Source of the DNA: Gemmatimonadota bacterium
GTDB lineage: Bacteria > 4572-55 > J002
NCBI GenBank assembly: GCA_003697105.1
Contig: RFFQ01000013.1
Span: 1 to 64,000, forward strand
Direction of reading: 5' to 3'
Length of the DNA stretch: 64,000 nucleotides
Below the pieces are notes generated by a model. That model worked only from the letters and a program-made list of their open reading frames with translations. It made no database searches and was not told where the DNA came from. Below are positions 31,909 to 45,804 of the stretch, piece after piece. The stretch's first letter is position 1. Each line of letters starts with the position of its first letter. The position numbers were made by a program, and so were the translations under genes.

Positions 31909-33285
31909 ATGAATCCATTAATTGAACCCTTCAAAATCAAAGTGGTCGAACCGATCAAAATGACAACCCGTGCCCAACGGGAGCGATTGATCAAAAAAGC
32001 GTATTATAATTTATTTTTTCTCCATTCCAACGATATTATGATCGATATGCTTACGGATAGCGGCACGTCCGCCATGAGCGACGCCCAATGGGCAGGCATC
32101 ATGGGCGGTGATGAAGCTTACGCCGGTAGCCGCAGTTTTGAGCGCTTTGAACAGGTAGTTAAAGACCTAACGGGATACCGTCACATTATCCCCACCCATC
32201 AGGGACGTGCCGCCGAAAAAATCTTGTTTTCCTCAATTGTCAAAAAAGCGGGGGGAGTAATCCCTAACAACACCCATTTTGATACCACCCGGGCAAACGT
32301 CGAATATACCGGCACAACCGCAGAAGATTTGGTCATTGATGAGGGGCATGATCCCGCGTCAACCTATCCTTTCAAAGGGAATATGGACTTAAAAAAACTC
32401 AAAGCCTGCATCGAAAAAGCGGGTCCAGAAAACGTACCGGTTGTGATGATGACGGTCACCAACAATTCCGGTGGTGGGCAACCAGTTTCGATGGAAAATC
32501 TGCGTGCGGTTCGGGACATGGCGCATTCCTATGGTATCCCGTTCTTTTTGGATGCCTGCCGTTTTGCCGAAAATGCGTACTTCATCAAACAACGAGAAAA
32601 AGGATACGCCGATAAAACAATTCGTGAGATCGCCCATGAAATGTTCTCGTACAGTGATGGTTGTACCATGAGCGCCAAAAAGGACGGTTTGGCAAATATC
32701 GGCGGATTTTTGGGGATTAATGATGATGTGCTGGCACAGGATTGCCGCAATTTGCTAATTCTTACCGAAGGATTCCCAACCTACGGCGGCCTTGCCGGGC
32801 GCGATCTGGAAGCCATTGCTCAAGGATTGGATGAGGTCTTGGAAGAAGATTATCTCCGGTTCCGGATTGGGCAAGTCGCCTATCTAGGTGACCAATTAAC
32901 GAAAATGGGGGTGCCGATCATGCAACCACCCGGCGGACATGCTATTTACGTGGATGCCAAATCCTTTTTGCCCCATATTCCAGTAAATCAATTTCCGGGA
33001 CAAGCACTAACAGTAGAACTTTATCTGGAAGCAGGGATTCGCGGTGTCGAGATTGGGAGCGTGATGTTTGGTAAAAAAGACCCCGAAACCGGTACCGAAA
33101 TTCCGGCGGCGTTGGAATTGGTACGTTTAGCCGTACCGCGCCGGGTGTACACCCAAAGCCACATTGATTATGTCGCCGATGCATTTGTACGGATCAACGA
33201 ACGAAAAAAGACCATCCGTGGTTATAAATTTGTGTACGAAGCCCCGTTTTTACGCCATTTTACTGCACGTTTTGAGCGTGTATAG
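31909..33285 (+). CDS. tnaA: Tryptophanase (tryptophan indole-lyase)
   Basis: PLP enzyme of 458 residues splitting L-tryptophan to indole, pyruvate and ammonia. The conserved GDEAYAGSRSF, PTHQGR and the PLP-lysine motif TMSAKKD (Lys about 258) are present. Tyrosine phenol-lyase is the close alternative; the residue that is Arg in that enzyme's S-M-E-R-G motif is Ile here (GVEIGS), as in tryptophanase, which favours tnaA. AGGA precedes the ATG. No tnaC-like leader peptide or tnaB permease is adjacent. It supplies indole and amino-acid carbon to the cell. Confidence 0.88.
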   Translation: MNPLIEPFKIKVVEPIKMTTRAQRERLIKKAYYNLFFLHSNDIMIDMLTDSGTSAMSDAQWAGIMGGDEAYAGSRSFERFEQVVKDLTGYRHIIPTHQGRAAEKILFSSIVKKAGGVIPNNTHFDTTRANVEYTGTTAEDLVIDEGHDPASTYPFKGNMDLKKLKACIEKAGPENVPVVMMTVTNNSGGGQPVSMENLRAVRDMAHSYGIPFFLDACRFAENAYFIKQREKGYADKTIREIAHEMFSYSDGCTMSAKKDGLANIGGFLGINDDVLAQDCRNLLILTEGFPTYGGLAGRDLEAIAQGLDEVLEEDYLRFRIGQVAYLGDQLTKMGVPIMQPPGGHAIYVDAKSFLPHIPVNQFPGQALTVELYLEAGIRGVEIGSVMFGKKDPETGTEIPAALELVRLAVPRRVYTQSHIDYVADAFVRINERKKTIRGYKFVYEAPFLRHFTARFERV

Positions 33286-33378: not shown

Positions 33379-33407
33379 TTGACATATCCATATGTTTCCT
33401 ATATAAT
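33379..33407 (+). promoter_or_regulatory. Perfect consensus sigma70-type promoter of the thioredoxin/selenoprotein cluster
   Basis: TTGACA at 33379-33384 and TATAAT at 33402-33407 separated by exactly 17 nt, the best promoter match in the window. Transcription would start near 33414, about 105 nt before the first gene's ATG. Confidence 0.85.
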
Positions 33408-33519
33408 CGGCACACTCCCCTAGAAAACCCCTATGTCTATCTCTTACACTTATTATACACCAGATACAATTACCCCATTTTCTATTTAGTGGACATATTC
33501 CCTTTTGGAGGTTTCCAAA

Positions 33520-35148
33520 ATGCTTATTTATATACCGAGGGTTCTGTTTTCGGCAATTCTGATGGCGACTACCCTATTATGTTTAGGAAGTTGCGATGAT
33601 AGCGACAATATGCCCGAACCCCTTTCGATTCAATTCCTTTCTCCGGCAAATGATGCCGTTCTTCGGGAAGATAGGATTGAAGTTCAGATTAACGCTTCAG
33701 CCAACCATGCAGATGCCCGTATCGATAAGGTCGAACTATTTGCGGGAAATCAGCAGGTTGCAACCACAACGGAAGTCCAGACCAATCCTGCCATCGTCAC
33801 CCTGGAGTGGGACGTCTCCAATTTGCCCAACGCCACTTACGAATTAGAAGCAAAAGTCTATGATAACCGCGGTAACACCAAAAGCAGTCAAATCCAGGTT
33901 CAACTCCACCGACAATTAAGAGTTCAAATTACCTCACCGCAAGATGGGCAGATTATCAACAGCAACCAGATACCGGTAACGGTTACGATTAAAACGATTG
34001 CCGCTGATATTGTTGAAGCCATCTTAACGGTTGATGGTGCGGCGGTGGTCACAAAAACCCAAGCACCTTGGGAGTTTACTTGGGATACGGCAGGCTACCC
34101 CCTCAATCAGGAGTACCATCTTCAGGTGACAATTGAAGATGCCGATGGAAACACAGCCCAATCGAATGTCGTGACCATCTGCGTGGGGTGTGAAATCCCA
34201 CCCTTGAGTTTGGCAATCATTTCCCCTCAGGCGGGTGAACAAATTGAAGCCAATCAGATTTCCGTTTCTGGAACGGTAACCAGTAACATTGGGCGAGCCA
34301 TTGAGCGGGTCACTTTGATAGTGAATGATAGCCCGGTGGCAGAGCGCAACCAAGCGCCGTGGGAATTCATCTGGGATACCACCAGCTATCCCGATAGTAC
34401 CACCTGTACCCTTTTCATCGAAGCTGAAGATGAGCAGGGCAATGTGGCACAATCCGAACCGGTGACCGTCTGTGTGCGCTGTGTGGAGCAATTTAGCCGG
34501 CAGCGGGTGGTTGTTCAGGAACAATTTACCGGCGCATGGTGCCAAAACTGTCTGCTTTATGCCGATCCGGCGGCAGATGCGCTGGCAGAAGAATTTGGAC
34601 CCACCCAATTGCTCTCGGTACATTACCATATCCGGGCAGGTTTGTTTGATGATTTTGAAATCGCGGAAGGTGTGGCACGGCTGAACTACTATGCCTTGAA
34701 CAACAGCCTACCCCATGCGGTCTTTGATGGCAGTGTCGTTATTACCGGCGGAGACCCCAGTACAGAAGACGTTTACCGGCAACAAATCAATACCCAATTG
34801 GCAGATGAGCCACCCGTCGGTATTCTGTTGACCGGCACGTTGGGCGCCGGAGAAATAACGGCAAAGATCAAAGCATTTGAACAACTCGCCAATCCCGGTC
34901 TAACCGTTCAATTTGTGATTACGGAGAGTGACTTAACTCACCCCAGCCCCCCGATTCATTTTAACTATGTTGTGCGAGATATGTTGCCCCCCGCCTCGAT
35001 CACCTTACCCAATGAAGGTGATCAAACGGAAGTAAGTCGTTCTTTCGTGTTAGATGACAGTTGGAATATGGATGAAATTCAACTCGTGGTGTTTGTTCAA
35101 GATGATAACACCAAAGTTATTTTACAGGGTCAAGCTATATGGGAATAA
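33520..35148 (+). CDS. Lipoprotein with Ig-like repeats and C-terminal Omp28-like thioredoxin-fold domain (CxxC)
   Basis: A 542-residue protein with a signal peptide ending in a lipobox (LGSC). Three tandem Ig-like beta domains follow, each with a conserved APWEF-W-D-T or comparable core. The last 200 residues are an Omp28-like thioredoxin-fold domain with the redox motif AWCQNC (Cys341, Cys344) and a likely cis-Pro in NSLPHAVFDG. It is the first gene of the cluster, directly after the perfect promoter. TTGGAGG precedes the ATG at 33520. It probably acts as an envelope-anchored thiol-disulfide protein whose Ig-like stalk holds the redox head away from the membrane. Confidence 0.82.
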   Translation: MLIYIPRVLFSAILMATTLLCLGSCDDSDNMPEPLSIQFLSPANDAVLREDRIEVQINASANHADARIDKVELFAGNQQVATTTEVQTNPAIVTLEWDVSNLPNATYELEAKVYDNRGNTKSSQIQVQLHRQLRVQITSPQDGQIINSNQIPVTVTIKTIAADIVEAILTVDGAAVVTKTQAPWEFTWDTAGYPLNQEYHLQVTIEDADGNTAQSNVVTICVGCEIPPLSLAIISPQAGEQIEANQISVSGTVTSNIGRAIERVTLIVNDSPVAERNQAPWEFIWDTTSYPDSTTCTLFIEAEDEQGNVAQSEPVTVCVRCVEQFSRQRVVVQEQFTGAWCQNCLLYADPAADALAEEFGPTQLLSVHYHIRAGLFDDFEIAEGVARLNYYALNNSLPHAVFDGSVVITGGDPSTEDVYRQQINTQLADEPPVGILLTGTLGAGEITAKIKAFEQLANPGLTVQFVITESDLTHPSPPIHFNYVVRDMLPPASITLPNEGDQTEVSRSFVLDDSWNMDEIQLVVFVQDDNTKVILQGQAIWE

Positions 35149-35178
35149 TCTCAACTTTTATCGATGGAGGAAGTACTG

Positions 35179-35721
35179 ATGAAATCAATTTTTAAGTTAA
35201 GTGCCTGTATTGTGTTGGCAATAACATTTGTTGCCGGAACGGCGATGAGTGCCGAAACGCGCGAATACCAAAAACTACCGGCATTTAGTACCAAAGATTT
35301 AAGTGGTAAACTCGTCAGTTTTGATGATGTCAAAGGTGAAAAAGCCACTTACATCACGTTTTGGGCAACGTGGTGCAAACCGTGCATGGCAGAATTGCCT
35401 CACTTGCAAGAGCTGTACGAGAAATATCAAGAGCAAGGATTGCAAATCATTGGTATGAATGAAGATACCGCCAAGAAAACCGCCAAGGTCAAAAAAGCCG
35501 TTAATCAGAAAAAGCTATCATACCCAATTTTGTTAGACCCAACAGCAGAAGTGGGTAAAAAGTTAGGGATGCCTACAGAGTTACCCTACGGCTTGCTCAT
35601 CGACGGTAACGGAAATATTATTGAAAAAACCATCGGATTTCAAAAAGGCGATGAGGATGCGTTAGAAAAGAAGATCGTTAAACTATTGGGGCTTGAAACC
35701 AGTACGGAGGAATCAAATTGA
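35179..35721 (+). CDS. TlpA/ResA-type exported thioredoxin
   Basis: A 180-residue protein with a signal peptide or membrane anchor (residues 1-25) and a single thioredoxin-like domain. The active site is ATWCKPC (Cys66, Cys69), and the cis-Pro is in TELPYGLLID. Family members reduce disulfides of apocytochromes or of other envelope proteins. Here it is followed by an overlapping barrel gene and the Omp28-like paralogs, so a role in delivering electrons to these surface redox proteins is plausible, but inferred. The ATG at 35179 has GGAGG; an in-frame ATG at 35164 is formed by that same region and is unlikely. Confidence 0.9.
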   Translation: MKSIFKLSACIVLAITFVAGTAMSAETREYQKLPAFSTKDLSGKLVSFDDVKGEKATYITFWATWCKPCMAELPHLQELYEKYQEQGLQIIGMNEDTAKKTAKVKKAVNQKKLSYPILLDPTAEVGKKLGMPTELPYGLLIDGNGNIIEKTIGFQKGDEDALEKKIVKLLGLETSTEESN

Positions 35722-37364
35722 AACCGCAAATAGCAATCAGTCTCGTCGCGATGGGATTGATGTTGTTGGTTAAGATTCCCACCGCCGGAAGTATTGATCT
35801 TAATTATTCATTTTACAATAATGTGCAATATTCGTTATTTGAAGCGTCGGAGCGCGACAGTCTTGTAGAACGCGCGGAAGTCAATCTTCAAATAGGGTTG
35901 TTGCGTACCGGCATGTTGCTGGAAGCGCGTCAACCTTTACCTAAAGTAGGAGATGCGGAACAAGGCTTTGGTCCCGTCAACGTGCGAAAACTGTTTTTTG
36001 AATTAGAAAAAGATGGGTTTTCGCTCCGTGCCGGAGATTTTCCGGTCTTATTTGGACGTGGATTATCGATCAACCTATTTCGAGATGATGCATTGCGTCA
36101 GGATACCGAACCGGAAGGCATCAAACTTGGCTACCGGAATGATTATGTTCAGGCAACGGCATTCAGCGGGTATGTGGAAAAATTTGTCGGACCCGTTTCC
36201 ACAAATGATGTCAGTTATGAAGTAGATGATACCCGGCAACATCTCTTTCGAGGTGCGGCATCTACGTTTCGTCCATTTACCAATACGGATTCTCCCTTAC
36301 AACCTTTAGAACTGGGGGTGCAATATGTCCGGTTTCGCTCCATCGAAGCCTATCCGTTCCCCCAAGAAACGCGGCGTTACGAAGACCGCCGTACAATGAC
36401 GGGAGGGAGTCTCTTCTATAGCGGTGATTTTTTTGATATTTACGGCGAATACGTCACCGGTAAGCGCATTGAAAACGAACTGTATCCCGATGGAAAAGCA
36501 AAGTTCACCATTGCCGAATACGATACCATCCAAGGAATATACGGCGTTATCAACGCCTTTTGGGGTGATTTTTCGCTTTTTGGCGAATTTAAGGATTATC
36601 AAGGGCTGGGCTTTTTTGATGCCTCCGGTAATTACTCCAAACCGATTGGACAGCTACAATCTCCTGCAAAACCGTACAACAATCCACCGCCCGTTGTCAC
36701 AGAGCATACCAGCCGGTTACTCGGTCGGGATATGTACCAGCCGATCATCCTCAATAACGAACGCGGGTATCGTGTGGAATTAGAGTGGACACCCACCTAT
36801 TCCACCCAGATTTTAGTCGATTATACCCGCGCAGAAAGTCGTGAAGGAGACCTCTATTTTCAGGAATATTACCTTGAATTTGAGCATTCTATTTGGGATG
36901 ATAACCTTTCGTTCATGGGCATGATCGAGCAAGGTGACGTGGGGGAAAAGGCAGACCGCACAGGCGGTTGGCTGAAAACCACGTACCAATTAAATGATAA
37001 ACAATCGATTGCCCTCACGACAGAATACATGGATGGTACGGTCAAAAACGTGGCAGATGAAGTCGGTCAATATTATGTTTTCAGTTTTTCGCAGTCCAAA
37101 GATACACATGAGAACGACTCGTTTTGGCGGGCGCTTCTGAAACGGTCGTGGACCCTCTCCGCCGCGTATGAGCTTAGTAGTGAAGCCGATCAGGATGGGA
37201 AAGATAATTGGTTTTCCTTAGCGATGGATTATAAAGTTTCAGATAATCATCTAGTACGGTTATTCTACGGTGCACGTCGAGCGGGTCTGAACTGCAACGG
37301 AGCAATTTGTGTCCCCGAACCGGCATTTGAAGGCTTCGAATGTCAATTAATTAGCGTGTTTTAA
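35718..37364 (+). CDS. Predicted outer-membrane beta-barrel protein (DUF6029-like)
   Basis: A 548-residue exported protein with a signal peptide (cleavage near residue 24). The rest consists of alternating amphipathic strands with many aromatic end residues, typical of a large barrel. The overall appearance and gene context fit the DUF6029 family, but I could not confirm this by search. The start is a TTG at 35718 that overlaps the TlpA stop (TTGA) with GGAGG 8-9 nt upstream; no ATG early enough to include the signal peptide exists. It probably forms the outer-membrane component of the redox cluster. Confidence 0.7.
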   Translation: MKPQIAISLVAMGLMLLVKIPTAGSIDLNYSFYNNVQYSLFEASERDSLVERAEVNLQIGLLRTGMLLEARQPLPKVGDAEQGFGPVNVRKLFFELEKDGFSLRAGDFPVLFGRGLSINLFRDDALRQDTEPEGIKLGYRNDYVQATAFSGYVEKFVGPVSTNDVSYEVDDTRQHLFRGAASTFRPFTNTDSPLQPLELGVQYVRFRSIEAYPFPQETRRYEDRRTMTGGSLFYSGDFFDIYGEYVTGKRIENELYPDGKAKFTIAEYDTIQGIYGVINAFWGDFSLFGEFKDYQGLGFFDASGNYSKPIGQLQSPAKPYNNPPPVVTEHTSRLLGRDMYQPIILNNERGYRVELEWTPTYSTQILVDYTRAESREGDLYFQEYYLEFEHSIWDDNLSFMGMIEQGDVGEKADRTGGWLKTTYQLNDKQSIALTTEYMDGTVKNVADEVGQYYVFSFSQSKDTHENDSFWRALLKRSWTLSAAYELSSEADQDGKDNWFSLAMDYKVSDNHLVRLFYGARRAGLNCNGAICVPEPAFEGFECQLISVF

Positions 37365-37378
37365 TCAGGGAGGTACTA

Positions 37379-39394
37379 ATGAAAAAAAGGATATTATTAA
37401 CGGTTTTGATATTCGGAATAGCAGTTTCCGGATGGGCGGATATTCCAAAACTCGGCGTTATTGAGCAGTTCACCACAGTGGGAAATGAGTTGTGCGAAGA
37501 GTCCAATCTGTACGTTCAACAATTGAAGGAACATTACGGGGTCAAAAACGCCGTGGTGATTCAATATCACGTGGGAGATAATGACCCATTTTACCAAGCA
37601 AACCACACGGATAACGACGCCCGGGCAGAATATTACGGCGTTGAATATCTGCCAATGGTTGCTACCTCAGGCAATAGCATGGTGCAAGCCACCGATCCAT
37701 ACGATATAAACGTCAAAATGGATAAAGTGTTAGAAACAGATACCCCACTTTATATGAGTGTATTCCATGAAATTGAGGGATCAACGCTCTCGGTAGAAGG
37801 CTCGGTAGTTGCCGCCGGCGAGATAGATGGCACATATAATTTACAAATCGCCGTCATCGAAAAAGAAGTGACAGAAGGAGGCATGACATATTATAATGTG
37901 ATGCGTAAACTTTTACCAGATGGCGCGGGTACTGATTTTTACATCGCCTCTGGGGGAGACGACGCTTATTATGAGTTCTCGCAATCGCTGCAAATCGACG
38001 CCGGCTGGGATACCGATCAATTAGAAGTGATCGTTTTTGTCCAAGACCCAGCAACGCAAGGTATTTTGCAAGCGGTCACCACAGAACTGGTTGAGGCAAC
38101 ACCCTCCCCACACCATATCCGGCTGGTGTCCGAACAACGTGTCCGAATTTTACCCGTGAATACTTTTTTGGAAAATCACTATATGCGCTTCATCAATATG
38201 ATGGACCAAGATGACCAGTTTGACTTTTTGCTGGAAACAGATATGCCGGAAGGTTGGGTGGCGTCTTTTTGTGTGGGACCCATTTGCTTACCGGATTCCG
38301 CACGTATTGCGTTTGAGGCGGGACAATCCGAGGGACAACCCGAAGATGATGGACGACACATGTATGTAACCATCACACCGATGAACACACCCGGCGTCGG
38401 CGATGTCATCTTTACGGCACGCTCCGTAACCTACCCTTCGGTACAGCAATCACTTCATTTCCGGGTCATCACCGATGGTATTGATGTGCTAATCGTCGAT
38501 GCGGATGGTGGTCTGGATAGTGAACAGGGCATTGCCAGCGCTTTGGAGCGCGCAGAAGTTACCTATGGCATCTGGAAAGCATCCACACCCATCACCGGTG
38601 CCGAAATGGCGAATTTCCCGGTGGTCATCTGGAATACCGGTCGGGCATTACCCACATTGCTGGAATCTGACCGAGCCGCCATCCAAGAGTATATGGATAA
38701 CCTCGGCTCGATCCTGATCAGTGGGCAAAATATTGGTTGGGATTTAACCAATGCCGCCAGCCGTAATCGCGATCCGGAATTCTATAGTGGTGTGCTTCAT
38801 GCCAATTTCATCAATGATAATGCATCCAGCATGGCAGTAACGGGTGTTGGGTTTGCGGAAGGTCTGGCATTTAATCTGGTCGATCAAACCTCGCCGGATG
38901 TGGTGGAACCCGTCGATGATAACACCTTTGACCTATACCAATATGGCGAAAGTGAAGTTGCCGGATTGTACACGGGAGCGATGGTCTATCTAGGGTTCGA
39001 TCCGGCACAAATTGATAGTGACGATCAGCGTGACTGGACCATCGCACGTATTTTGAATTACTTTAATTTGGCGGTTGGTGCGGGACCGGTGACCACAGGC
39101 ATCACCCAAACGCCACCAGCCGTAACTCTCCACCAAAATGTGCCGAATCCATTCAATCCCACAACACGTATTCGGTACGAATTACCGCAAAGTAGCACCG
39201 TGAAGCTTACCATTTATGATGTCACCGGACGGTTGGTGCGCACGTTGGTCAACCAACCCCAAGAAAGTGGCATTTATGATGTCCAATGGAATGGTCATGA
39301 TGATGCCGGTCACGTCGTGAATAGCGGCATCTATGTTTATCAATTGGAAACTGAAACGGCGACGCAGACTCAAAAAATGATGTTGTTGAAATAA
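37379..39394 (+). CDS. Omp28-like T9SS cargo with Asn in place of the first active-site Cys
   Basis: A 671-residue paralog of the two selenoproteins downstream. A signal peptide (1-20) precedes a thioredoxin-fold domain (about 21-235), a beta-sandwich, a flavodoxin-like/GATase-like alpha-beta domain (DVLIVDADGG near 372), and a T9SS sorting domain with NVPNPFNP and a terminal MMLLK. At the redox position it reads NELC: Asn36 replaces Cys/Sec, while Cys39 is kept. It is therefore a monothiol or non-redox relative. GGGAGG precedes the ATG. It is followed by a strong terminator. Confidence 0.82.
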   Translation: MKKRILLTVLIFGIAVSGWADIPKLGVIEQFTTVGNELCEESNLYVQQLKEHYGVKNAVVIQYHVGDNDPFYQANHTDNDARAEYYGVEYLPMVATSGNSMVQATDPYDINVKMDKVLETDTPLYMSVFHEIEGSTLSVEGSVVAAGEIDGTYNLQIAVIEKEVTEGGMTYYNVMRKLLPDGAGTDFYIASGGDDAYYEFSQSLQIDAGWDTDQLEVIVFVQDPATQGILQAVTTELVEATPSPHHIRLVSEQRVRILPVNTFLENHYMRFINMMDQDDQFDFLLETDMPEGWVASFCVGPICLPDSARIAFEAGQSEGQPEDDGRHMYVTITPMNTPGVGDVIFTARSVTYPSVQQSLHFRVITDGIDVLIVDADGGLDSEQGIASALERAEVTYGIWKASTPITGAEMANFPVVIWNTGRALPTLLESDRAAIQEYMDNLGSILISGQNIGWDLTNAASRNRDPEFYSGVLHANFINDNASSMAVTGVGFAEGLAFNLVDQTSPDVVEPVDDNTFDLYQYGESEVAGLYTGAMVYLGFDPAQIDSDDQRDWTIARILNYFNLAVGAGPVTTGITQTPPAVTLHQNVPNPFNPTTRIRYELPQSSTVKLTIYDVTGRLVRTLVNQPQESGIYDVQWNGHDDAGHVVNSGIYVYQLETETATQTQKMMLLK

Positions 39395-39400
39395 ATCCCC

Positions 39401-39435
39401 AGCCCGGTACGGGTATCCGTATCGGGCTTATTTTT
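39401..39435 (+). terminator. Intrinsic terminator between the Asn-type paralog and the first selenoprotein gene
   Basis: A 12-bp stem with one G-T pair (39401-39412 with 39417-39428), 4-nt loop and TATTTTT tail. It lies only 31 nt before the next start codon, so the downstream gene would depend on read-through or on a promoter inside the upstream gene. Confidence 0.85.
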
Positions 39436-39466
39436 ATCCACCTTCGGTTGGAAGGAGATTGTACCA

Positions 39467-41443
39467 ATGCGTAAATTGTTTTTAGTATTGTTAGCTCTGG
39501 CTTTTTTGATGCCGGTACGCGGTATGGCGGTAGAACGCACCGTACTGGCAGAATTACAAACAGCAACGTGGTGAGTGTACTGTCCTTGGGCTGAAGCAGC
39601 CATCGATCAGTTGATCGAGGAATACGGTACCGATAACGTCGTTTATATTGCCTATCACTATACTGACGAACTGGAAATCGCCGAAGGAAGTGCACGCTGG
39701 GCATCCTATTATGGCAATGAAGGTACGCCTAATATGTACTTTGACGGGCTCCAAAATGTGTTAGGCGGTTGGGAAGGCTGTTATGACGCTTATCTTGCTG
39801 AATTGCAATCCCGCTGGGCAAACAGTAGCCCGATTCGCCTCGAACTCATCGGGGGAATTGTGGATACGGAAGGATATATCTCGGCAAATGTTACATTAGA
39901 AGGGGACATTCCCGCCGGTATGACCGTCCGCTTTGCCGTTATAGAAAATGATATTATCCTAAATCGCCACTATAATGGGGTATTACGAGACTTACTGGCA
40001 GAAGAAACGCTCAGCATCAGCCAGCAAGGCGAAACGGTTACGTTGGATCGCACCTTCCCCGTAGAAGAGGGTTGGAATTACGAAAATATGGGCGTGGTTG
40101 TATTTGTCCAAAATGATAACACCCACGAAGTCCTTCAAGCCGCTTATTTTGACGCTTCAGATTCTGAATATCTGGTGAGCTTTACGTCCAGCGGCACCGT
40201 TGCGATTTCAGAAGCAGACCAACCCTATGATTTTTATGCCTTGGTGGAGAATGTCGGTCCGAATGACGATACTTACACCATTACAATGAATACCGATGAA
40301 TTACCCGAAGGGTGGAACGCCACGTTTACCATCGGCGAAGACGTGTACGAATCCGAAGCCGAAATTGATCTGGCGTCAGGGGAACAGGTACTTCTCACTA
40401 TCAATTATAATCCGAATAACGTACCCGGTCAGGGCGATGTTTATTTAGAATTAGTCTCCCACGCCGAACCGCGCCTGCAAAAATCAATGAGTTTTCGGCT
40501 GATCTCCGATGTGGAAGTCCTGATTGTGGATGACGCCCTCAATACCGATGCCACCCTGTATGAAACGGTGCTAACCGAAGATGAAACGATATGGGGCACG
40601 TGGGAAGTCCTCCGGGGAGGCAACATTGATAGTGATGAAATTGCGAATATCCCCACCGTGTTATGGATAACCGGTAGCGACGATCGTGAAACCATCACCG
40701 AAGACGATCAAATGGAATTGATCACCTATCTGGAAAACGGCGGATCATTGCTCCTAACCGGTCACAATATCGGGGGCGATATTGCCGCAACTGAATTTTA
40801 CACCGATTTTCTGGGCGCCCGTTATCGTTTCAATAACTTCGGACAAACCACCCTGAACGGGATCGAAGGCAACCCGATTGGCGATGGGTTAGTCCTCGAA
40901 ATTGAACACGATTCCCCAGATGTGGTCATGATGCAGGACGATGTGGATGGTCTGGAACCGGTCTTCCAATATGGAGCAGTGCCCAACCTCTACGCGGCAC
41001 TCGCACATGCGGCAGATACGTACCGGACGGTCTATTTTTCTGTGAGTCTGGATCAAGTATCCGATCCAGACAGCCGGGAAAGTGCCCTATTGCGCTCCTT
41101 GCGCTGGTTGAGAGGCGAATCCACGAACATCGACCCGGTGGAGCAAACATCAATTGCCACCGTCTCACATTACCAACTGGCACAGAATGTACCGAACCCA
41201 TTTAACCCCCGAACCACAATTGCCTATGCGTTGCCGGAACAAAGTCGTGTCAGTATCCATATTTACAACTCTTCCGGTCAATTGATACGAACTCTGGTCA
41301 ATAAGACGCAGAATGCCGGCACATATCACGTCCAGTGGGACGGTACAGATAGTGAACATCACGAAGTCGCCAGTGGGATTTATCTGTATAAACTCGTGAC
41401 AGACAAAGAAACACACATTAAATCAATGGTATTACTCCGGTAA
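39467..41443 (+). CDS. Predicted selenoprotein: Omp28-like thioredoxin-fold T9SS cargo with UxxC active site
   Basis: One continuous 658-residue protein if the in-frame TGA at 39572-39574 is read as selenocysteine (residue 36). The start at 39467 has GGAAGGAG and a signal peptide (1-21), and residues before and after the TGA are both typical of the family. The active site is TWUVYC (Sec36, Cys39), at the same place as TTCPPC in the paralog at 43622. A cis-Pro-like GTPNMYFDG follows. Then come a beta-sandwich, an alpha-beta domain (DVEVLIVDDA) and a T9SS sorting tail (NVPNPFNP, ending MVLLR). A conventional caller would begin the gene after the TGA and lose the signal peptide. The likely role is surface or extracellular thiol chemistry. 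Confidence 0.85.
39589..39617 (+). promoter_or_regulatory. Candidate bacterial SECIS element for Sec36
   Basis: A hairpin with a 4-bp stem (39589-39592 with 39598-39601) and loop GAAGC, whose first base is G, lies 21 nt from the TGA, within the spacing expected for bacterial SECIS. Immediately after it is a second perfect stem, CGATC-AGTT-GATCG (39604-39617), which might extend or compete with it. Confidence 0.6.
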
Positions 41444-41465
41444 CCAAGCGGGCATAATCGGGTGA

Positions 41466-41497
41466 AACCCTTAGCATCTACAAAGGTGCTAAGGGTT
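41466..41497 (+). other. Strong hairpin between the two selenoprotein genes
   Basis: A perfect 11-bp stem (41466-41476 with 41487-41497) extended inside by three more pairs to a 4-nt loop. No T-tract follows, so it is more likely an RNA-processing, stabilising or attenuating element than a full terminator. Confidence 0.6.
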
Positions 41498-41549
41498 CAA
41501 TCCCAACAGAACACTCCATACCAAAAGCCCATTCATGAGGAGATTACCG

Positions 41550-43550
41550 ATGAGGCAAATTTTATGGACAAGTGTGGTTTGGTCATTTATTGCCGTCTCC
41601 GCATTTGCAACGGAACGGGTGGTCTTAATGGAAATGTTTACCAGCACCACCTGACCGGTTTGTCCCACTGCGGAGCAGTGGCTTGATAACTGGTATCCTA
41701 GCAATTACGATGACGTGGCAATTATCCGTTACCACATGAATTGGCCCGCCCCCGGGAATGACCCCTTTTATCACGCCAACCCGCTAGAAAACAACGCCCG
41801 GCGAGGGGTTTACGGCGTCAACGGCATACCGGACATGTTTGTGGATGGCGTTTTAAATCCAGGCATACCCTACAGTACCGCCGTCAACCAACGGTTGGAG
41901 ATACCTAGCCCGTTGGAAATCAATGTGGATGGAACATTTGATTGGACTACCAATGAAGGCACCACTACGGTGGAAATCACAGCAACAGAAGACTTCTCTT
42001 ATAATTCATTGCGGATGCAATACGTGATTATTGAAAATAATGTAGCATACACCGGTCCAAACGGACATACACCCCACCATCAGGTGATGCACGATATGGT
42101 ACCAACAGCTTCGGGCGAAAGTTTTGAGATTACAAATGGAGAAACCCTCCTATTCAACCGGAATTTCGTCATTGATGAAAGCTGGGATGCGAATGAATGT
42201 GAGATTGTTGTTTTTGTGCAGGATAATACGAGCCGTGAAGTCTTTCAAGCAATGCATATGTCGCTTGATGAACTGTTTCCTATCCGCCTCCGCTTTGAAA
42301 CAAGCGGCAATACGGCACTGGGTGCGTCCGATGGTGAGTATCCGTTTTACGCCCTCATCGAAAATCAAGACAACCAAGCAGATGTATTTGATGTTGAATT
42401 GACAACCTCTGCACCCGAGGCGTGGTCGATCAATTTTACGCTGGAAGGAGTCACCTACGAGGATGGGGCAGAACTCCCCCTCGATGCCGGTGAAGAAGTG
42501 CCCTTAACCGTGAATATCAGCCCCAATAGCACCGCCGGTGAAGGTTTTGCCACGGTCACCCTCACCTCCCAATCCGAACCACGGGTGGTAAAATCTCTGA
42601 CCTTCCAACTCATTACCAATGATGTAGATGTGCTCGTGATTGACGATGCCAATGATGGTAATATTGAACCGTATCGCGCCGCACTGGAAACAACCGATTT
42701 TGTCTTTGGCGCCTGGGATGTCGCGGTGGGAGGCGCTCTAAATCCAGAGGATCTAGAACAGATTACGACCCTCATCTGGTTTACCGGCGGTGAAGAAGAG
42801 ACCGCTTTAGAACCCGATGAAATCGAGATGTTGACCGGTTACCTCGATAACGGCGGGCAACTGATGCTCTCGGGGCGAAATTTGGGCGTTGCGATTGGCA
42901 CAACAGATTTTTATACTGAATATCTCGGTGCCCATTTCCGGTTCAACAACTTCAGCACCTATGAGGTGAATGGGATTGAAGGCGACCCCATCGGGGATGG
43001 TATCTCCTTCACATTTGAGCAGGATTCCCCAGATGTCGTCCTCCCCCGTCCCGGAGTGGATGGCGTGTCACCGGTTTTTCAATATGGCGATATTCCGCTG
43101 TATGCGGCACTACGGCACGAGACCGAAACCTACCGCACGGTGTACTATTCGATCAGCTTGGAAGGCGTCAATGAAGCCGATGCCCTCGCCCAGCTCATCG
43201 AAAATTCGGTTCTCTGGTTACAAGGGGAAGAAACAGCAATTGAGCCACAAAAAAGTGATGTGGCACGTGTAACTGCCTATCAATTATTTCAAAATGTACC
43301 GAATCCATTCAATCCTCAAACTCAAATTGAATATGCGGTGCCGGTACCTGCAACAGTTCAGTTGAATATCTATTCCGTGACAGGACAATTCATCAAAACG
43401 CTTGTACATCGTCCGCAAAGTGCCGGACACTATCGTGTGATATGGGATGGTACCAACCAGTTTGGAGCTGCCGTAGCCAGCGGAATTTATCTGTATGAAC
43501 TATCGGCTGGGGAACACCGGCTCACCCGTCAGATGGTTCTACTCCATTAA
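41550..43550 (+). CDS. Predicted selenoprotein: Omp28-like thioredoxin-fold T9SS cargo with UxxC active site (second copy)
   Basis: A 666-residue protein when the in-frame TGA at 41652-41654 is read as selenocysteine (residue 35). The ATG at 41550 has GAGGAG and starts a signal peptide ending near SAFA (20). The active site FTSTTUPVC (Sec35, Cys38) matches FTSTTCPPC of the next paralog almost residue for residue; the codons differ only TGA versus TGC. The family cis-Pro motif GIPDMFVDG follows. Downstream are a beta-sandwich, an alpha-beta domain (DVLVIDDAND) and a T9SS tail (NVPNPFNP, ending MVLLH). It is likely exported by Sec and T9SS and active in extracytoplasmic thiol or peroxide chemistry. 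Confidence 0.88.
41665..41681 (+). promoter_or_regulatory. Candidate bacterial SECIS element for Sec35
   Basis: A perfect 7-bp stem (41665-41671 with 41675-41681) closes the loop GGA. The loop starts 20 nt from the TGA and begins with G G, as expected of the bacterial SECIS consensus. It is the more convincing of the two SECIS candidates. Confidence 0.78.
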
Positions 43551-43559
43551 TCTCACTGG

Positions 43560-43592
43560 CGAAACCTCAAGGAAGGAGGCTTCGTCTATTTT
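43560..43592 (+). terminator. Weak terminator-like hairpin before the Cys paralog
   Basis: A 9-bp stem with one mismatch (43560-43568 with 43576-43584) followed by TCTATTTT. It separates the second selenoprotein gene from the Cys-containing paralog, which has its own AAGGAGG ribosome-binding site. Confidence 0.45.
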
Positions 43593-43621
43593 CCCAACCT
43601 ATGTTTTAAGGAGGTTTTACG

Positions 43622-45709
43622 ATGCGTAAAACACTATTTATGGTTTTAATATTAATACTAATGGTTACGCTTTTCGTACCCAATGTACACGCGGAACGAA
43701 TCGTACTGTTGGAGATGTTTACCAGTACCACCTGCCCACCGTGTGTATCCGCCAATGCGGCGATGAATACGTGGTATCCTGACAACGATGATATTTCGGC
43801 ATTGATTCGCTACCATGTTTGGTGGCCCTCACCGGGCAATGACCCGTTCTATCTGGCAAACACGGCAGAAGCCCAAGCCCGCACCAATTATTACGGGGTA
43901 AATGGGGTGCCCGACATCTTTGCAGATGGACTTTTGGACGCCAGTTTCCCTCCCATTTCTCAGGTTGCTCAACGTCGCGCGGTAGACCCGCCAGTGGATA
44001 TTATGGTTGCCGGCAGCTATGACGTTGATAATAACGTTGGTGAGGCAACTATTACTGTCTCCGCGCTGGAAGACTTCAATTACAATGACCTCCGCTTTTT
44101 CTTCGTTATTACGGAAGATAATTGTGTGTACACTGGTACAAACGGGGATCCGGTACACCATCAGGTGATGCGCGACATGGTGCCAAATGCCAACGGCGAA
44201 AGTTTTGATATTGCCGATGGTGAATCGGTCGTGTTTACCCGATCCTTCTCGCTATCACCCGTACCGGGTGTAAATGAGACCGGAATTCCTGAAAATACAA
44301 ACGTCGTGTGCTGGGTTCAAGATGTAGCAACAAATTCCAGAGAAGTACATCAGGCCGCTTGGGTACCCCTAATGGAACTCGTCCCAGCCGCCGCTATTGA
44401 AGGATATGTCACCGACTGTGCCAATGAGGAAGGCTTGGATGTGACGAATGTCTATGTGGAAGGCACGGGATATGCCACCATCACCGATGAAAATGGATTT
44501 TACCATCTCAATGCCGAACCGGGCACGCACACGGTCGTTTTTGAGCGGTTCGGGTATGTCACACACACCCAAGAAGTCACCTTAGCCGAAGATGATCTAC
44601 TGCCCGTAGATGTCTGTCTGAATGCGTTCGGGCAATCCACGTTAACCGGAACGGTTTCACAGCGGGAAAATGGTAATCCAATTCCAAATGCACCCATTGA
44701 ACTGCTCGGTGTACCAATTAATTCCACCGTAACGGATGAAAACGGGGTCTATACGTTCAGTGTTCCGGGTGGTTACACCTACGAGGTTTCGGTCTATGCA
44801 GATGATCGCGAACCGGTTGTAGAAAGCGTTACCGTACCTGAAAATGAAGTGGTAGAGCACAACTTCCCGATGCGCTTTGTTCAAAGTTTTGAAGCAACCG
44901 ATGGTGGCTTTGATCCCAACCGCCTGTGGGAGTGGGGCGATGCCAACGCAGGTGGTGGCGCTGAAACGGCCTATTTGGGGATGAAGTACTGGTCAACCAA
45001 TATCGACGGTGCATATCCCAGTAATCAACGTGCCGATCTGGTGACACCCGAATATAGCCTGACCCAAGCCAACGCCGCCGATTTATTCTATGCCCACTGG
45101 CTCGATACCAACGAGGGATGGGACGGCTATAATCTTTCCATCAGCACTAACGGCGGCGATGACTGGGTCCGGATCGAACCGGAAGGAGGCTATCCCGGCA
45201 GTGTGATCGGATTATCGGGACAACCTGGCTTCTCCAGTGATAGCAACGTATGGGAGATGGTACATTATGATCTGACCGACTATCTCGGCGAAGTGGTTCA
45301 ATTCCGATTCCGTTTCGGTAGTACCAACAACAACCGGAATTACTTAGGGGTTTGCATTGACTATTTTGATCTCCAAACGGATGTGGAAACGGCGGTAGAT
45401 GAGCCACAAATGACGGGTATTGCCATTCCACAAGCCCTGACACTGAGCCAAAATGTCCCCAACCCGTTCAACCCCAATACGAAAATCCATTTTGCCTTGC
45501 CCCAAACCCAACATATTAATGTCGCCATTTATGCCCTGAATGGACAGTTGGTAAAAACATTGCAAAATGGTGTTCTTTCGGCAGGGGATTACACCGTTAC
45601 TTGGAATGGTACCAATGAGCAAGGCGTACCGGTAGCCAGCGGAACATACATCTACCGCTTGGAAAGCAACGCTGAAATCCTCAGCAAAACCATGGTCTTG
45701 TTGAAGTAA
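43622..45709 (+). CDS. Omp28-like thioredoxin-fold T9SS cargo with CxxC active site
   Basis: A 695-residue Cys homolog of the two selenoproteins. The signal peptide (1-24) is followed by the thioredoxin-fold domain with TTCPPC (Cys38, Cys41), the IRYH-x5-SPGNDPFY segment, and GVPDIFADG with the cis-Pro. Unlike its neighbours it then carries two carboxypeptidase-regulatory-like beta domains (AIEGYVTD, TLTGTVSQ) and a MAM-like jelly-roll segment (LWEWGDANAGGGAETAYLG), and ends in the T9SS tail (NVPNPFNP, MVLLK). AAGGAGG precedes the ATG. It shows that the N-terminal redox module has been shuffled onto different secreted scaffolds. Confidence 0.88.
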   Translation: MRKTLFMVLILILMVTLFVPNVHAERIVLLEMFTSTTCPPCVSANAAMNTWYPDNDDISALIRYHVWWPSPGNDPFYLANTAEAQARTNYYGVNGVPDIFADGLLDASFPPISQVAQRRAVDPPVDIMVAGSYDVDNNVGEATITVSALEDFNYNDLRFFFVITEDNCVYTGTNGDPVHHQVMRDMVPNANGESFDIADGESVVFTRSFSLSPVPGVNETGIPENTNVVCWVQDVATNSREVHQAAWVPLMELVPAAAIEGYVTDCANEEGLDVTNVYVEGTGYATITDENGFYHLNAEPGTHTVVFERFGYVTHTQEVTLAEDDLLPVDVCLNAFGQSTLTGTVSQRENGNPIPNAPIELLGVPINSTVTDENGVYTFSVPGGYTYEVSVYADDREPVVESVTVPENEVVEHNFPMRFVQSFEATDGGFDPNRLWEWGDANAGGGAETAYLGMKYWSTNIDGAYPSNQRADLVTPEYSLTQANAADLFYAHWLDTNEGWDGYNLSISTNGGDDWVRIEPEGGYPGSVIGLSGQPGFSSDSNVWEMVHYDLTDYLGEVVQFRFRFGSTNNNRNYLGVCIDYFDLQTDVETAVDEPQMTGIAIPQALTLSQNVPNPFNPNTKIHFALPQTQHINVAIYALNGQLVKTLQNGVLSAGDYTVTWNGTNEQGVPVASGTYIYRLESNAEILSKTMVLLK

Positions 45710-45770
45710 CGATTCGTCTCCTCCATGCCTAAATCCGAGCGATTTGGCATGGTTCACTCTATTGATTGGA

Positions 45771-45804
45771 AACCGCCACTGCTCAGATGAATAGTGGCGG
45801 TTTT
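45771..45804 (+). terminator. Terminator at the end of the redox cluster
   Basis: A perfect 10-bp stem (45771-45780 with 45793-45802) with a 12-nt loop and a short TTTT tail. Another hairpin lies just before it, near 45723-45752. Together they close the cluster ahead of tlyA. Confidence 0.65.

Follow-up and report, generated by a model that had tools for sequence, protein, structure and literature searches.

The solved structure closest to the proteins considered here is that of HBP35 from Porphyromonas gingivalis, which reduces insulin via its two CxxC cysteines, is exported by the Por/type IX secretion system (T9SS), has a hemin-binding site that is not part of the CxxC and aids growth under hemin scarcity, with no evidence for protection against oxidative stress (PMC2907840, PMC3120885). 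Omp28-related proteins with selenocysteine (Sec, U) are also known: the NCBIfam family NF045500, 'Omp28-related selenoprotein', corresponds to the UxxC-containing 'hypothetical protein GOS_C' in a 2026 inventory (PMC13188914). For the DUF6029 family (PF19494), polysaccharide export is the sole role put forward to date, on the grounds of similarity (PMC9603273). Here, we describe a gene cluster in which members of these groups come together, located in a stretch of 64,000 nucleotides (nt), positions 1 to 64,000 of contig RFFQ01000013.1 of assembly GCA_003697105.1 (hereafter, the window; all positions are those of the whole stretch). According to our analysis, a redox system that depends on selenium and operates on the cell exterior may have been overlooked. 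The system is real and widespread, its selenoprotein kind is already known, and the T9SS export of the Sec forms and the partnership between a TlpA-like thioredoxin and a DUF6029 barrel look new.

The cluster is compact, with seven genes on the + strand (33520-45709) separated by intergenic gaps of 15, -4, 14, 72, 91 and 71 bases. The first three genes encode an Omp28-domain lipoprotein with a CQNC motif (33520-35148), a TlpA/ResA-like thioredoxin with a signal peptide and a WCKPC motif (35164-35721), and a DUF6029 outer-membrane beta-barrel (35718-37364). These are followed by four T9SS-tailed Omp28/HBP35-like proteins, in which the attacking residue of the active site is asparagine (NELC, 37379-39394), Sec (U36-V-Y-C, 39467-41443), Sec (U40-P-V-C, 41535-43550) and cysteine (CPPC, 43622-45709). 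All these parts were found where a first-pass annotation, made from the letters alone, had placed them, including the series N, U, U and C. On balance, we consider it somewhat probable that what we see here exemplifies a conserved module for thiol/selenol redox chemistry in the outer envelope.

The genomic evidence indicates, far beyond chance, that both in-frame TGA codons of the window are read as Sec, given that the genome holds the Sec machinery, that TGA is favoured strongly over the other stop codons and that it falls at the active site. The host genome (4.18 Mb, 97% complete) encodes a tRNA-Sec (63 bits, ARAGORN anticodon TCA), SelB (383.8 bits) and SelA (585 bits), and the TGA triplets, codon 36 of the first selenoprotein (39572-39574) and codon 40 of the second (41652-41654), align with the first Cys of CxxC, in agreement with what the first-pass annotation had proposed. 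A survey of 386 genomes with a profile of the N-terminal domain (N-domain) yielded 132 matches in 57 genomes, among which in-frame stops comprise 40 TGA, one TAA and no TAG. In the fetched loci, 40 of 41 TGA codons are located exactly at the first Cys of CxxC; the 41st, in locus L095 (G135:C176; motif CGUAAC), lies two residues beyond the usual position and nonetheless gives a UxxC. SelA was detected in 24 of the 26 genomes with TGA copies versus 147 of the 360 others (p = 2.7e-7, shared ancestry uncorrected). In both Sec genes of the window, the reading frame is conserved past the TGA as far as the intact tail. The 48 bases that follow the TGA codons are more stable than the corresponding RNA of Cys homologues (mean -14.5 versus -10.3 kcal/mol; shuffle-corrected p = 1.6e-5), as expected of bacterial Sec insertion sequence (SECIS) elements. 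The second selenoprotein gene carries a SECIS-like stem-loop at 41654-41694 (-20.3 kcal/mol, z -2.95) with GGA in the apical loop about 20 nt past the TGA, and an Rfam scan of the window returned no match. On a 110-domain tree for which the active-site residue had been masked, at least 16 interchanges between Sec and Cys are counted, six of them forced by well-supported branches. Two more Omp28-type genes with in-frame TGA are present elsewhere in the host genome (G000:C24:12755-13381 and G000:C185:226-870). One scan of genome contigs recovered six relatives, all of them Cys forms.

The redox function proposed by the first-pass annotation is supported at the level of the predicted fold. In an AlphaFold2 (AF2) model of selenoprotein 2, with a predicted local distance difference test (pLDDT) score of 74 overall and mostly 75-94 in the N-domain, the latter matches HBP35 (PDB 5Y1A) with a Z score of 25.3 over 217 residues (root-mean-square deviation 2.4). 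The same model contains an immunoglobulin (Ig)-like domain that resembles the N-terminal domain of PorA (Z 12.2) and a tail that resembles that of PorU (Z 11.0). In Foldseek searches with the whole Sec protein, matches to the Ig domain dominate, and the match to HBP35 was resolved by VIA-align. Across 115 homologues, the cis-Pro (99%), the second Cys (98%) and the first Cys or Sec (97%) are conserved, whereas no conserved heme ligands were found and every histidine other than H67, which lies near the active site, is retained in less than a quarter of these sequences. This pattern of conservation points to thiol redox as the conserved function of the Omp28/HBP35-like domains and gives no indication of heme binding. 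Omp28 copies in which the attacking residue is replaced occur next to Sec or Cys copies: besides the asparagine of the protein encoded at 37379-39394, serine is found in locus L086 and threonine in locus L155. Such copies are likely to be non-catalytic partners.

The presence of T9SS sorting tails on all four proteins, another element of the first-pass annotation, was confirmed with the TIGR04183 model (cut-off 23), which scores 44.1, 35.6, 25.1 and 30.1 bits for genes 4-7, in that order. The host genome also encodes the T9SS components SprA (508.6 bits summed) and the PorU sortase (649.9 bits, cut-off 420), so that the secretion genes on which the annotation's export claim depended are indeed at hand. 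About 48 further matches to the tail model were found in the genome, including the four window proteins and the Sec copy on contig C24. SprA accompanies the Omp28-like domain across genomes, being detected in 48 of the 57 Omp28 genomes versus 59 of the 329 others (p = 2e-22, again uncorrected for shared ancestry). Of 37 Sec copies that are complete, 24 bear a T9SS-like tail when judged by a crude rule. From the sorting tail and the precedent of HBP35, we infer that the tailed Omp28 proteins reach the cell surface.

The probable outer-membrane barrel noted in the first-pass annotation scores 71 bits against PF19494 (cut-off 27) and covers profile positions 29-538 of 538. DUF6029 barrels were identified in 60 of the 386 genomes and are concentrated among those with Omp28 domains (41/57 versus 19/329; p = 1e-27, likewise without correction for shared ancestry), with an Omp28 gene located within 10 kb of 27 out of 61 barrels. 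In the 57 barrel loci that were fetched, a TlpA gene lies directly upstream of the barrel gene on the same strand in 50 cases, and Omp28 genes are present in 31 loci, always on the strand of the barrel (59 of 59 genes). The gene order seen in the window, for which conservation among genomes had been suggested as a check, thus recurs widely, and the genes for TlpA and the DUF6029 barrel form a pair that is conserved across many families. The recurrent arrangement consists of a tail-less Cys Omp28 lipoprotein, TlpA, the barrel and a T9SS-tailed Omp28 protein with Sec or Cys. An alignment of the 57 barrels contains exactly two cysteine columns, each occupied in 57/57 sequences, within the motif GGxxCxGGxCRxxPxFxG that immediately precedes the last strand; in the window barrel, this invariant C-x4-C (C526 NGAI C531) is encoded at 37293-37310. 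In outer-membrane barrels, the C-terminus and the short turns are periplasmic and the long loops face the outside. By these topology rules, the C-x4-C is apparently extracellular. A search of PDB sequences with the barrel gave chance matches only.

Several observations concern the surroundings of other TlpA-barrel pairs. In loci L137, L138 and L154 (genomes G156, G052 and G008), selA lies directly downstream of the pair, and in the first two of these selB is located near the selA-TlpA-barrel genes. In L154, two T9SS-tailed proteins precede the pair, one a gingipain-type C25 protease and the other a subtilase. TlpA-like UxxC proteins specified by TGA are encoded near barrels or Omp28-U genes in L112, L139, L142, L145 (three copies), L173 and L176; the one in L139 carries a T9SS-like tail.

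How might such a module work? Under the reading that we favour, the tailed proteins would exit via the T9SS with their thioredoxin domain and be displayed on or released from the surface, and the Omp28 lipoprotein may act as a fixed partner. The thioredoxin domains at the surface would find their natural partner in the extracellular cysteine pair of the barrel, and exchange between Sec or Cys and its disulfide could open, anchor or recharge the barrel. The surface proteins would then reduce disulfides or related oxidants outside the cell, with the periplasmic TlpA supplying or setting the redox state of barrel or cargo, in the role of either electron source or maturation factor. With Sec, the attacking residue would be more acidic and would react faster at neutral pH, and the asparagine copy, which has no attacking residue, is probably a non-catalytic binder. 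A more specific proposal, which we put forward only tentatively and regard as doubtful, is that DUF6029 is an outer-membrane thiol-redox barrel, served by TlpA on the inside and by Omp28/HBP35 or TlpA-type thioredoxins, often T9SS-exported selenoproteins, on the outside, such that reducing power passes across or onto the outer membrane via the C-x4-C. If so, the DUF6029 redox barrel would provide many bacterial families with a cytochrome-free route for extracellular redox chemistry.

Several points weigh against a module of this kind. A periplasmic TlpA would be unable to reach the extracellular cysteine pair of a finished barrel and, given that the only conserved cysteines of the barrel are apparently extracellular, a direct relay from TlpA to the barrel is not obvious. 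The topology itself is inferred, and an AlphaFold model of the barrel, from two sequences only, reached a pLDDT of just 26.5. The Sec genes of the cluster lie behind a likely terminator (39401-39428), and the SECIS-like fold 3' of the TGA in the first of them (39575-39632) is weak (z -2.26 for 61 nt and -1.02 for 51 nt), unlike the clear one in the second. No SelA was detected in two genomes with TGA copies (G287 and G338), both incomplete metagenome-assembled genomes, and the genome-level p-values ignore shared ancestry. Furthermore, no barrel was detected in 16 of the genomes with Omp28 domains, and 19 of the genomes with a barrel gave no Omp28 match, indicating that the parts of the module are separable.

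The main rival is an assembly system, in which TlpA, as a periplasmic thiol oxidoreductase devoted to this task, would form, break or proofread the C-x4-C of the barrel and perhaps shield the Sec or Cys of the cargo before export; the disulfide would be structural and the Omp28 proteins only frequent neighbours. We regard this as possible, on the unlikely side. It is favoured by the pairing of TlpA with the barrel, which is tighter than the linkage between Omp28 and barrel (50 versus 31 of 57 loci), by the periplasmic location of TlpA implied by its signal peptide, by the proximity of the barrel cysteines to the last strand, the starting point of barrel assembly, and by the existence of barrels without Omp28. 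Nevertheless, it leaves unexplained why thioredoxin-fold proteins, both Omp28 and Sec-TlpA, are such frequent neighbours of the barrel, and it does not account for the three genomes in which selA comes directly after the pair. An outer-envelope redox module also has to be set against the acquisition of heme or a metal, a role proposed for HBP35, whereby surface proteins would bind heme or metal, the thioredoxin site would reduce or free it and the barrel would import it. The hemin binding of HBP35 and the help it gives to growth when hemin is scarce, as described in the reports cited above, are consistent with this; however, the hemin site described there is not in the CxxC, histidines apart from H67 are poorly conserved, as aforementioned, and a family profile search identified no heme-uptake genes among the cluster genes, making this account improbable.

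Detoxification of peroxide, arsenate or selenium compounds by secreted UxxC enzymes with TlpA as the electron donor, along the lines of the idea advanced with the first-pass annotation, appears very improbable. Many Sec-containing thioredoxin-fold proteins are thiol peroxidases or oxidoreductases, as is generally known and reflected in the inventory (PMC13188914), but no peroxidase or detoxification signature was found, and HBP35 gave no evidence for oxidative-stress protection. Least credible of all is the possibility that both genes are broken, each TGA being a genuine stop or an error of sequencing. Nothing speaks for this beyond the default meaning of TGA in translation table 11, and the 40 TGA against a single TAA and no TAG at one conserved position in many genomes, the Sec machinery of the host and the conservation of the frames beyond the TGA up to an intact tail all speak for decoding. 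We rejected this pseudogene or sequencing-error reading on account of the TGA bias and the exact alignment with the active site.

With the outer-envelope redox module retained as the preferred reading, the individual proteins deserve a closer look. In the lipoprotein, the lipobox (LGSC-DDSDN) is followed by three Big_7 Ig domains (102.9 bits) and a C-terminal Omp28/thioredoxin-like domain (35.1 bits, cut-off 34.9), with no T9SS tail; in the tree, this Omp28 domain is the sister of the one that adjoins the TlpA-barrel pair in genome G001. The TlpA matches PF00578 (AhpC-TSA) with 90.1 bits and the ResA model NF002854 with 103.6 bits, below its cut-off of 170, so that it can be assigned as generally TlpA-like only; its second ATG, near 35179, has the stronger ribosome site. 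Against PF11551 (Omp28; gathering score 34.9), four window proteins score 35.1, 36.5, 58.9 and 38.4 bits, and the CPPC copy falls under the gathering score with 31.9 bits. Genes 4-7 share an architecture of signal peptide, Omp28/HBP35-like N-domain, variable middle domains and T9SS tail.

The description of these four genes as tandem paralogues is loose. Compared with the N-domain of the UPVC copy, those of the others show 29-51% identity, and only the UPVC and CPPC copies are sisters in the N-domain tree. The closest grouping of the UVYC copy is with two Sec copies from elsewhere in the host genome. As the copies fall on different branches, we rejected a simple recent tandem duplication of four paralogues. 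The CPPC protein, despite the sister relationship of its N-domain to that of the UPVC protein, has entirely different middle domains, carboxypeptidase-regulatory-like and MAM-like, and the UPVC and UVYC proteins have middle domains in common. This mixed kinship of N-domains and middle domains points to domain shuffling or gene conversion inside the cluster.

As regards transcription, the hairpin at 39401-39428 (+ strand), located between the asparagine copy and the first Sec copy, resembles an intrinsic terminator (12-bp stem with eight G-C pairs, T-rich tail) and probably splits the first four genes from the last three. Because of its position after gene 4, the lipoprotein, TlpA, barrel and asparagine-form genes look as if they are transcribed together, whereas separate transcription or read-through may serve the U, U and C genes. 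The start of the cluster proposed in the first-pass annotation, 33379, coincides with a sigma-70-type promoter match, TTGACA-N17-TATAAT (33379-33407, + strand; 12/12 in a consensus scan), which by itself is no evidence of function. The cluster is flanked upstream by a tryptophanase/tyrosine phenol-lyase-like gene (31909-33285) and downstream by an FtsJ/S4 RNA methyltransferase gene.

Selenocysteine is costly and easily oxidized, and most described bacterial selenoproteins act inside the cell or in the periplasm. The proposed module, if real, would show that cells invest selenium in extracellular chemistry, and it would give both the DUF6029 barrel family and the HBP35-type thioredoxins a first testable function. 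Public annotations also probably truncate many of the Omp28-type Sec genes at the TGA. As to precedents, we found no paper on Omp28 selenoproteins in the open-licence literature, nor, by title or abstract, a recognizable T9SS-exported selenoprotein, and such absence is weak evidence. The text of the inventory (PMC13188914) does not mention T9SS or sorting tails, and its available portion does not mention the barrel/TlpA module. Pairing of DUF6029 with TlpA, the invariant C-x4-C and the linkage to selenoproteins were not found in the literature searched. The statement in the first-pass annotation that no such family was known to have been described is not supported in that form, given that NF045500 exists and that HBP35, a Cys thioredoxin with the same fold, is already known to be exported by the T9SS.

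Compared with these known systems, the window proteins share with HBP35 the fold of the N-domain, a thioredoxin-type active site and a T9SS-type C-terminal domain. By contrast, HBP35 has Cys in place of Sec, is 344 aa long and has been shown to bind hemin, and neither a barrel nor a TlpA partner is described for it in the accessible parts of the reports (PMC2907840, PMC3120885). The Omp28 lipoprotein of P. gingivalis (PDB 2R2C, PF11551) resembles the product of the first cluster gene in being a tail-less lipoprotein with an Omp28 domain, whereas the window lipoprotein adds three Big_7 domains and sits in a TlpA-barrel operon. The DUF6029 barrels of PMC9603273 belong to the same Pfam family as the window barrel. 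The TlpA/ResA-like selenoproteins (NF041054; 'UGC-containing TlpA' in PMC13188914) are likewise exported thioredoxin-fold selenoproteins, and Sec-TlpA copies occur beside some barrels, but the window TlpA has CKPC and no Sec. Finally, the NF045500 proteins and the products of the genes at 39467 and 41535 have in common a thioredoxin-like domain, related to Omp28, in which Sec opens the UxxC motif. The five window proteins score 20.0-66.3 bits against this model, far below its cut-off of 200 bits, which makes them relatives outside it, and they differ from its members in their length (542-695 aa), their extra middle domains and, in four of the five, their T9SS tails.

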